From Marinomonas sp. TW1 (GTDB lineage Bacteria; Pseudomonadota; Gammaproteobacteria; Pseudomonadales; Marinomonadaceae), in contig NZ_JSEE01000001.1 of assembly GCF_001625355.1 (NCBI RefSeq), positions 248,001 to 312,000 on the forward strand: DNA of 64,000 nucleotides, in the 5' to 3' direction. Every line of letters starts with the position of its first letter. The first letter of the stretch is position 1. The notes below the pieces were generated by a model that had not been told where the DNA came from, made no database searches, and saw only the letters and a list, made by a program, of their open reading frames with translations. Below, piece after piece: positions 51,390 through 57,697 of the stretch. Made by a program: the position numbers and the translations under genes.

Positions 51390-51410
51390 TCTTATTGCAA
51401 CGCATCATTA

Positions 51411-51435
51411 TCCGACCCTGCGGCATCGGGTCGGA
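51411..51435 (+). terminator. Terminator after the DUF1127 gene
   Basis: 8-bp stem TCCGACCC / GGGTCGGA with a 9-nt loop, followed by TCTTTCC. Moderate terminator. Confidence 0.7.
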
Positions 51436-51595
51436 TCTTTCCATGTTTAGGTAAGCCGCTCAGAAACCCATTTAGTCAAACTAGAAGCACTAACACCACT
51501 CTCAAACTTATTTTTTTGTTTATTTTTTAACCAAAAGATACTAACTTTAAAAAAACCTCCCTCTAAGTAATCCAATTACAGACAAGGAAATAACA

Positions 51596-53350
51596 ATGAA
51601 GGCCTTCATTTTATTGCTCGTCAGTTTTGTGCTGATTGCGTGTTCCAGTAATCCTACAGGCACCGTTAGCGTTCGTTCAGTTGAGCCAGATGGCACCCTG
51701 AAAGAGCCCCTCATTTCCACTGCAAATCTTATAAAAGATGGTAATACCATTTTTAAAACCGAAGCCGACGGCTCTACTGATGGAAATGATGTATATGCTA
51801 TTTATCTTACGGATGCCTATTTGAAATACTTAGCCGACTGGTGGGGAGTGAATGAGGTGATTTTTGTCGTCGAATTCACCGAAGCCGTTACCGGAGAAAC
51901 AGATTCAGACATCACTACCAAAATTTTAGGGCCATACGAAAAATTGGCCGATGGTATCAAAGCGCCTTTTCTCAATAAGGCATTATATGGTCCGAAAAAA
52001 ATGGAAAGTGACCTGCTGAGCATGAACATTAAAGTCTATGAATATGACTTGGATGAAAACGATGGAAGCTCGGCCATGCTGGAATTCATTGCCGCCACCG
52101 CCGAAAGCTTCTCTTTATCCAATCCCATTACACTTGGTGAAATCAAACTCGCGAAAGAAATTGCAAACACCTTATTACTCGCAAACGAAAACGATTTAGT
52201 CATGGAGATGGATATTGACTTTGTTGCAGGGAACAGTAAATACACGTCTAGCCATCATTCTAATGTTGTGCCGCTAAAAGATGGCGAAGTCATTATGGTC
52301 AAACAAGAAGGATGCGCTGTGATGACATGTTATGACTATTTTAGTAAAGATTGGTCTAACCTCCCTGGACTCCTTCCAGATCTCTTTATGTTGATACCAA
52401 CCACATTAAACAGAGCTTTTGTTGATACCCCCGACCACTCGAGTCTCAAGGACTTTAACGACGAGAAATTAATCGTCACCAAGGATGGCATTACTGAAGT
52501 AGATGATCAAAAAAAACCGAAAGGACTCTACAAAGATAAAACTTGGCTCAGACTAAACATTGTGAAAGGCGGCGATGCATCACAATGGTCTTTCAGAAAG
52601 AAACTCTACCCAACGGCAGAAGAAGTTGAAAAGCTATTAAAAAATCCATATTCACTCAACCAAGACAATATCGATTCTATTTTGAAAGGCATAAATGATG
52701 CGCAAAAAAGCTTAACGGATGTGACAAAACAAGCGGTTGTTCAACTGACTTCCGAAATGAGTCAAAATAACATCCACTTTATCGAGGCAAGTGAAGAGAC
52801 TAAAACCAGCGGTTTGTGCTTACATCATCCAGAGAATGTCACCATTATTAATCTGGCTTCAAGACCAACAGATAATAATCAAACCTTCCTTTATAAAAAA
52901 GTAAGTTCATCAAAGCAAGGAAGCTGCTACACAGTAACGGCTTCACCAGAGGGCACCGCCTTTACTCAAGGTAAGGGAGATTTCATTGTCAATTATGACG
53001 TCAATGACACGGTCAACGTTCAAAATTTACCCTATTTGGTACGTTCCAAACTGGCCGATGGGGATGTTACACTTAGCTGTCATCCTAATACCGACAACAC
53101 CAGCTACCAACTTGTGCTTAACCCTAAAGAAGGTCGTGAGGATAAACTCCCACAAATCACCGACATTACCTTTAGTGACGCGAATCAAGACATTCCTTTT
53201 ACGACAACCGACCAAGACATTAAGACGAACAGTGACTTTGACCAAAAGAACAGTGTTAGCCTCAAAGTAAAAGATATCTTCGGTGCTGTCATTACACCTA
53301 GTATTCCACTTGCTGACATTCAGACCTGCTTAAAGCTTCCTCAAAGCTAA
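51596..53350 (+). CDS. Large uncharacterised lipoprotein
   Basis: A 584-residue protein with a classic lipoprotein signal (MKAFILLLVSFVLIAC), lipidated Cys16, and Ser at +2, which favours the outer membrane. I recognise no family in the rest. It has six further cysteines, enough for three disulfides, and many Asp/Glu and Asn/Thr. Predicted parts are an N-terminal domain with YLTDAYLKYLADWWGVNEV, a central helix (DNIDSILKGINDAQKSLTD) and a beta-rich C-terminus. SD AAGGAAA and ATG 51596 are clear. It is single, with a terminator on each side. Confidence 0.75.
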   Translation: MKAFILLLVSFVLIACSSNPTGTVSVRSVEPDGTLKEPLISTANLIKDGNTIFKTEADGSTDGNDVYAIYLTDAYLKYLADWWGVNEVIFVVEFTEAVTGETDSDITTKILGPYEKLADGIKAPFLNKALYGPKKMESDLLSMNIKVYEYDLDENDGSSAMLEFIAATAESFSLSNPITLGEIKLAKEIANTLLLANENDLVMEMDIDFVAGNSKYTSSHHSNVVPLKDGEVIMVKQEGCAVMTCYDYFSKDWSNLPGLLPDLFMLIPTTLNRAFVDTPDHSSLKDFNDEKLIVTKDGITEVDDQKKPKGLYKDKTWLRLNIVKGGDASQWSFRKKLYPTAEEVEKLLKNPYSLNQDNIDSILKGINDAQKSLTDVTKQAVVQLTSEMSQNNIHFIEASEETKTSGLCLHHPENVTIINLASRPTDNNQTFLYKKVSSSKQGSCYTVTASPEGTAFTQGKGDFIVNYDVNDTVNVQNLPYLVRSKLADGDVTLSCHPNTDNTSYQLVLNPKEGREDKLPQITDITFSDANQDIPFTTTDQDIKTNSDFDQKNSVSLKVKDIFGAVITPSIPLADIQTCLKLPQS

Positions 53351-53362
53351 TCTAGCCTATTA

Positions 53363-53396
53363 AAAAAGGGAATCGACACGCTGCGATTCCCTTTTT
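53363..53396 (+). terminator. Terminator after the lipoprotein gene
   Basis: Stem AAAAAGGGAATCG / CGATTCCCTTTTT with an 8-nt loop, just after the stop. Confidence 0.88.
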
Positions 53397-53505
53397 AACC
53401 CAATTCAAATAGAGCCAATTCCATTTGATGCAACACCTTGTTAAGGTCTTTCCATGTTAACCCCGTGGCTTTTTTTGCTCGGCTTGCCAAAGGATAAGCA
53501 AAACA

Positions 53506-55903: not shown

Positions 55904-56167
55904 CTAATTGTTTTTATATACTGAAGATCTGTGTGCGACTTTAATCACGTTTATGATCAATACAGCGTCTCTTATCTCATAGATGATCCGATATAAACCT
56001 TGCCTTATACGATAATTATCTAAACCCGATAGCTTGATACAACCTTCAGCTCTTGGATTGTCTGCTAGACTTTCGATTTTTTGAAGTATTTTGGGTACGT
56101 CTTTTTTAGGAATACTCTTAAAATCTTTGCCAACTGATTTTTTAAAAGAAATTTTATATTTTGCCAT
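55904..56167 (-). CDS. RelE/ParE-superfamily toxin
   Basis: An 87-residue protein starting MAKYKISFKKSVGKDFKSIPK with the typical RelE/ParE fold: KILQKIESLADNPRAEGCIKL, LDNYRIRQGLYRIIYEI and C-terminal IINVIKVAHRSSVYKN. The basic residues and late His-Arg pattern match mRNA-cleaving RelE members, but ParE-like gyrase inhibition cannot be ruled out. It overlaps the antitoxin gene by 14 bp. Confidence 0.88.
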   Translation of the reverse strand: MAKYKISFKKSVGKDFKSIPKKDVPKILQKIESLADNPRAEGCIKLSGLDNYRIRQGLYRIIYEIRDAVLIINVIKVAHRSSVYKNN

Positions 56168-56830: not shown

Positions 56831-57697
56831 CTAGATCTGAGCCTTTTCCTCACTCAAGACGTTGTTGATTTCTTTCCAACTCAGCCCACTGCCCTTTTTC
56901 GTGGATGTTTTGGTTTGGGTCACTTGGATGATTTGCCCCGCAATGGAAATGGCAATTTCAAAAGGCTTTTTCCCTGCCACTTCCGAAATGCCCACTGGAC
57001 TGTGTACCGACTCAATTTCCGCTTTGCTAAATGATGCACTGGCCAAACGCTTTTTAAAGCGTAGGGCTTTGGTCTGTGAGCCAATTAAGCCAATAAAACG
57101 ACAATCTTTGCGATCCAACAAAGCTTCCACTAGATGATAATCCAAGGCGTGATCGTGGGTCATGACCAAGGCGATTTCGTTATGACTCATGTGGTCGATG
57201 TGATCCAACATAGATTCATAAAGAAAGGGCGTGACGTTGCTCGGTAAGCCATTGATACTGTGGTCTTGAGCAATATTTTCACGGCTATCGACCCATGAAA
57301 TTTTCGCCTGCATGTTGCCCAACACATTCACCAAGGTGGTTGCGACGTGCCCCATACCAAAAATGGTAACTTTCGCCGCAGGTTCTGGAAAATATTCCAA
57401 CAAGACACTCACCGCCCCACCACAGCATTGATTGGTTTTGGCGGCGAGCGGAAAGTTTTCCAACAAGTGAGAAGGCCCATCGCCCGCTTCTAATATGGCA
57501 CGGGCTTTTTGACAGACAGCGTATTCCAACTGTCCACCACCAATGGTGTCAAAACTGTGTTTTGAGGTAATCACCATCTTACTGGCCGACTCTCGCGGTG
57601 ATGAACCCTTGGTGCCGATCACAGTGGCCATCACCCAAGCCTGACCAGATTTTTCCACCTCAGCCAAGGCGTGTATCCAATCAAGAGAAGACATCAT
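56831..57697 (-). CDS. xdhC: Xanthine dehydrogenase accessory protein XdhC
   Basis: Molybdenum-cofactor insertion factor that sulfurates Moco and delivers it to XdhB. The 288 residues have an N-terminal XdhC/CoxI domain (VIGTKGSSPRESASKMVI, GGGQLEYAVCQKA) and a C-terminal Rossmann domain with IFGMGHVATTLVNVLG and the ARG-like SPVGISEVAGKKPFEIAISI. Start overlaps xdhB end by 4 bp. Confidence 0.93.
   Translation of the reverse strand: MMSSLDWIHALAEVEKSGQAWVMATVIGTKGSSPRESASKMVITSKHSFDTIGGGQLEYAVCQKARAILEAGDGPSHLLENFPLAAKTNQCCGGAVSVLLEYFPEPAAKVTIFGMGHVATTLVNVLGNMQAKISWVDSRENIAQDHSINGLPSNVTPFLYESMLDHIDHMSHNEIALVMTHDHALDYHLVEALLDRKDCRFIGLIGSQTKALRFKKRLASASFSKAEIESVHSPVGISEVAGKKPFEIAISIAGQIIQVTQTKTSTKKGSGLSWKEINNVLSEEKAQI

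Follow-up and report, generated by a model that had tools for sequence, protein, structure and literature searches.

VolA is a surface lysophospholipase lipoprotein of Vibrio cholerae. Lipase toxins accompanied by immunity lipoproteins are also known, among them Tle3/Tli3 and TslA/TilA (PMC9860674; PMC10730906). Tli3 is a beta-rich outer-membrane lipoprotein that partners the T6SS phospholipase Tle3 (PMC9860674), and TilA (DUF576) is a lipoprotein encoded beside a phospholipase A, the T7SS lipase TslA (PMC10730906). One immunity protein is reported to be needed to activate its own lipase (PMC11470151). The locus analysed here lies in a window of 64,000 nucleotides from Marinomonas sp. TW1 (contig NZ_JSEE01000001.1, positions 248,001 to 312,000), to which all coordinates below refer unless another locus is named, and it encodes a 584-residue lipoprotein. 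We propose, as a tentative reading that we hold to be possible rather than probable, that this protein is an outer-membrane-anchored accessory lipoprotein, either an adaptor or a control protein, for lipid-cleaving enzymes that are themselves probably lipoproteins. The features of the locus were as follows, with the support for each in brackets.

51410-51436, + strand: weaker terminator-like stem that follows the upstream DUF1127 gene (z -2.3; 4 of 200 shuffled sequences did as well)
51510-51600, + strand: upstream stretch common to the window and the copy in another Marinomonas genome, G039 (76% over 91 columns)
51596-53350, + strand: lipoprotein gene, 584 aa (ORF, homologues, dN/dS)
51596-51640, + strand: signal peptide, residues 1-15 (read by eye)
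51641-51646, + strand: lipid-bearing Cys16 and Ser17, the +2 residue (read by eye)
51644-52750, + strand: conserved front, residues 17-385, with the close cysteine pair 240/245 (alignment, dN/dS, model)
52757-53047, + strand: first predicted Ig-like domain, about residues 388-484, with cysteines 408 and 444 (model, fold match, alignment)
53048-53347, + strand: second predicted Ig-like domain, about residues 485-584, with cysteines 495 and 578 (model, fold match, alignment)
53363-53396, + strand: terminator-like stem of 13 pairs (-17.8 kcal/mol, z -6.2, none of 200 shuffles as good)
53431-53480, - strand: putative scar of the xdhC 3' end, about 51 bp, behind the terminator (sequence comparison)

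The lipobox of the window lipoprotein, read from the translation, was LIA-C16-S17, and a signal peptide, a lipobox and a lipid-bearing cysteine were found by eye in all eight sequences of the family. The +2 residue was Ser in five, Thr in two and Ala in one of them, and Asp was absent from this position in 8/8. Lipoproteins without Asp at +2 are sorted to the outer membrane. The window lipoprotein contained seven cysteines, Cys16 and six others at residues 240, 245, 408, 444, 495 and 578, and these six were kept in 8/8 aligned family members. Since the pair 240/245 lies in the front and one further pair in each tail domain, three disulfides are likely. The earlier note on this DNA had read the product as a lipoprotein with a clean lipobox, predicted to be in the outer membrane by Ser at +2 and carrying six extra cysteines, and all three readings were borne out, Ser17 being in agreement with the sorting rule. 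Orthologues with 58-77% identity to the window protein were present in five further Marinomonas genomes. The lipobox, the kept cysteines, the purifying selection on residues 17-385 and the orthologues together indicate that the 584-residue ORF is a genuine gene.

Among the eight sequences, the mean pair identity was 65% over residues 17-385 and 77% over residues 60-215 compared to 34% over residues 386-584. Invariant columns numbered 132, with 119 within residues 17-385 and 10 within residues 386-584. The dN/dS values for residues 17-385 and 386-584 were 0.037 and 0.212 for the pair G000/G040, and 0.046 and 0.125 for the pair G005/G031, respectively, all of them rough because dS was high (1.5 to 3.7). 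In the closest pair, G005/G028, dN/dS was 0.188 for the front and the tail gave no value, and three other pairs were saturated. Judged from the alignment and these ratios, the front is under stronger constraint than the tail, and the tail is fast-evolving. Moreover, the invariant residues included 13 Asp and 6 Cys compared to no His, suggesting that a binding protein fits better than a His-dependent hydrolase.

The whole-protein model was confident from about residue 380 onward, and the pLDDT was below 50 over residues 1-379. A second model of the front, made for residues 20-400 from the eight sequences, had a mean pLDDT of 37.6; with both front models mostly below 50, the fold searches speak for the tail only. 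The tail was modelled as two beta-sandwiches, for which 404 Foldseek matches were obtained at E 0.001 or better, to tandem Ig-like proteins of many kinds. The best fold match was a pilus chaperone (rmsd 7.0 A) with antibody chains scoring nearly as high, and its Z of 8.4, the highest for the tail, is close to the background level typical of common folds. As modelled, the tail is two Ig-like beta-sandwiches. The earlier note had been unable to assign any domain and had asked for a comparison of the AlphaFold/Foldseek type. That comparison overturned the statement for the last third of the protein, which matched the Ig-like fold, and left it standing for the front two thirds, where no confident model and no assignment were obtained. 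The idea of a C2-like domain in residues 60-215 was dropped, no Pfam match being found.

The lipoprotein family is rare and absent from the libraries searched. The window protein had zero matches in Pfam, and over the eight members the best E was 0.029 in Pfam and 0.043 in NCBIfam, none being above a curated cut-off. The best E was 0.26 in PHROGs, searched with the window protein only, and 0.75 (protein) and 0.8 (profile) among PDB sequences, none of which was significant. This upholds the claim that the protein belongs to no recognised family. The lipoproteins of the window, Alteromonas confluentis (L015) and a second Alteromonadaceae genome, G466 (L018), designated P0001, P0003 and P0005, respectively, had no match in PADLOC, and there was no paper on this lipoprotein family among the literature matches listed. 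The presence of the gene across Marinomonas strains, a check that the earlier note had suggested, was patchy: it was found in 6/48 genomes, own genome included, and the family search covered the same 48 genomes. Searches at the level of order, class and family covered samples of genomes. In the order-level sample 5/390 genomes matched, all of them Marinomonas, and in the class-level sample of 369 genomes only the own genome was found together with one weak match in G941 (E 0.009, 15 bits, tail only), which was taken for chance. When species genomes were scanned for two peptide patterns, M. aquiplantarum, M. profundimaris and A. confluentis were found. Outside Marinomonas, the two relatives found were those of A. 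confluentis and G466. Sampling around A. confluentis gave 2/395 genomes of its family and 1/394 of its order, and at the genus level 1/59 Alteromonas genomes and 1/3 genomes in the genus of G466. No match was found among 72,556 plasmids searched with P0001 and P0005, among 50,697 phages searched with P0001, or in viral contigs scanned with P0001 and the family alignments.

In all six Marinomonas copies xdhC was found near the lipoprotein gene, at a distance of 62 bp in G031, 85 bp in G039, 1.8 kb in G005 and G028, 3.5 kb in G000 and 8.4 kb in G040. A DUF1127 gene and a LysR gene were present on the other side in four of the six (G000, G040, G005 and G028). A YjbR-like neighbour without the lipoprotein occurred in 12 genomes; the site comparison took in three of these (G019, G029 and G046), leaving out G941 and the other nine. 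In these three genomes the DUF1127, LysR and YjbR genes were close together without the lipoprotein gene, with 88 bp between the YjbR and DUF1127 matches in G029 and a different gene order in G046. In G039, the lipoprotein gene was flanked by xdhC on one side and by a duplicate of about 278 bp of the xdhC 3' part on the other (L023 8926-9204 and 11211-11486), the repeat being 93.5% identical and its ungapped pieces 96-97%. The scar in the window resembled the G040 allele (86% identity) more than it did the window's own intact xdhC (56831-57697; 71% over 45 bp). Given the xdhC 3' duplication in G039 and the scar in the window, it looks as if the lipoprotein gene was inserted and spread by recombination at xdhC. 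The stretch at 51510-51600, which likely holds a promoter, resembles that of G039 though the genes further upstream differ, and the promoter may therefore travel with the gene.

The earlier description of a single gene was confirmed in Marinomonas. In the window the gene lies between terminator-like stems, the strong one at 53363-53396 sitting just past the lipoprotein stop and the weaker one at 51410-51436 upstream; a simple pattern-based terminator scan listed neither. No lipase gene adjoined any of the six Marinomonas copies when the ORF lists were read (G028 by positions and the near-identical G005), and a search of the 48 Marinomonas genomes, made without a positive control, gave no relative of P0002, the A. 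confluentis neighbour enzyme presented below. A hydrolase-like lipoprotein gene recognised by eye about 6.5 kb (G040) and 3.8 kb (G005) from the lipoprotein gene was not retained as a candidate partner, since G000 and G028 lack it at this position. The arrangement of the gene in Marinomonas would suit a structural or adhesive protein of the envelope that acts alone, for which lipase neighbours in two genomes would be coincidental. The single gene between terminator-like stems, the lack of an adjacent lipase in all six Marinomonas copies, and a variable tail of tandem Ig-like domains, as in many adhesive proteins, are consistent with it. Nevertheless, the strongest conservation was found in the front and not in the tail, and both copies found outside the genus had lipid-cleaving neighbours, unrelated to each other, at 10 and 25 bp. 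On balance we regard a stand-alone protein as unlikely, though as one of the two main alternatives.

Other genes were observed near these sites. A ParE-type toxin gene is located in the window at 55904-56167 (Pfam 8.1e-10), and G019 and G031 carry copies 95% identical to it in the vicinity of their YjbR-like gene. In G031 (L022 11469-16025), a gene for a 614-aa protein with no family above the cut-off adjoins the lipoprotein gene; further on, about 4 kb from the latter, a PifA-like KAP NTPase is encoded (PADLOC 2e-52). In G040, tandem near-identical genes resembling those of methyl-accepting chemotaxis proteins by eye (L019 3078-5027 and 5523-7496) lie near the lipoprotein gene.

In A. confluentis, the gene for P0002 was found upstream of the lipoprotein gene on the same strand, with 10 bp from its stop to the lipoprotein start. 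P0002 is a 665-aa patatin-like protein (Pfam Patatin 1.7e-7) with a probable lipoprotein signal and, by eye, the motifs SGGGMRSA, TVSGGG and DGA, which we take to be the active-site motifs. In G466, the gene for a lipase, P0004, was found downstream on the same strand, with 25 bp from the lipoprotein stop to its likely ATG; read in a longer form, this ORF would share 26 bases with the lipoprotein gene. P0004 contained GHSLGG and a probable lipobox, and it matched Lipase_3 (5e-6), Mbeg1-like (3.8e-6) and, far below the cut-off of that family, NCBIfam SA1320_fam (2.5e-9). The lipoboxes of both enzymes were read by eye and are not textbook (TTG-C, LFG-C). The lipoprotein gene was thus found beside a lipase gene in 2/2 Alteromonadaceae copies compared to 0/6 Marinomonas copies, the enzymes being of two unrelated families and the pairings only two in number. 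The earlier view of a stand-alone protein held for the six Marinomonas copies and failed for the two Alteromonadaceae copies with their same-strand lipase or phospholipase gene at 10 or 25 bp. Viral contigs scanned with P0002 and P0004 and plasmids searched with P0004 gave nothing useful; for P0002, 12 plasmid records showed remote similarity of the patatin type over part of the sequence. The stretch around the lipoprotein-lipase pair of G466 (L018 3263-17222) also encodes a GajA-like protein (PADLOC 1e-191) and a helicase of the ResIII type, as well as a protein of 1460 aa to which no family was assigned.

The lipid-cleaving neighbours of both relatives suggest that the lipoprotein family helps or restrains such enzymes. 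At the membrane, the front would carry out the function common to the family, for instance by holding the enzyme or presenting lipid. The variable Ig-like tail would form the partner-specific contact, so that one kind of front could pair with unrelated enzymes. Since there is no adjacent enzyme in Marinomonas, the protein there would serve an enzyme encoded elsewhere, in trans, or be an orphan. An accessory lipoprotein whose tail is specific to its partner is consistent with the conserved front, the variable tail and the two unrelated lipase neighbours. That it is a mobile outer-membrane accessory lipoprotein, whose undescribed conserved front is combined with an exchangeable Ig-like tail coupling to unrelated families of lipid-cleaving lipoproteins, is a bolder statement that we put forward with considerable doubt.

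The same neighbours could be accounted for by an immunity lipoprotein against lipase toxins, orphan in Marinomonas, which would be located in the envelope, bind an incoming lipase and block it. The toxin pairs named at the outset provide a precedent, and the patchy presence in Marinomonas and the sub-threshold match of the G466 lipase to SA1320_fam point the same way. However, the neighbour enzymes seem, in contrast to T6SS effectors, to have export signals of their own, the front is conserved though the two enzymes are unrelated, and no Pfam or NCBIfam immunity family was found above the cut-off; we consider an immunity function improbable, though a serious alternative. It is very improbable that the protein is a defence cargo acting at the envelope, by blocking phage adsorption for instance, and residing in islands together with further defence genes. 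A GajA-like gene does occur in the stretch around the G466 copy, and the distance from the G031 copy to the gene for the PifA-like KAP NTPase is some 4 kb, but P0001, P0003 and P0005 themselves had no PADLOC match and no such genes were recognised, mostly by eye, beside the other copies.

If the accessory reading is true, the family would represent a novel type of protein that partners the lipoprotein lipases of marine Gammaproteobacteria, built on a two-module logic of shared front and partner-specific tail, and a family absent from the libraries searched would gain its first functional lead. If it is false, the gene would still be a clear single-gene cargo, coming and going near one chromosomal place.

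Among known proteins, the pilus chaperones YadV and Caf1M resemble the tail only, with two tandem beta-sandwiches over residues 373-574 (Z 8.2-8.4); at 8-10% identity and an rmsd of about 7 A, a common fold alone is shared. Tli3 differs in that its partner is a VgrG-delivered effector and in that it has three stacked beta-sheets (PMC9860674) compared to two Ig-like domains behind a front here. TilA is from Bacillota (PMC10730906). The window family differs from Tli3 also in having no Pfam or NCBIfam match, and from TilA in having no Pfam match and in neighbour enzymes that seem to have export signals of their own. VolA, like perhaps P0002 and P0004, cleaves lipids as an outer-membrane lipoprotein, but it is the enzyme itself and not a partner protein, the role tentatively proposed here for the window lipoprotein.
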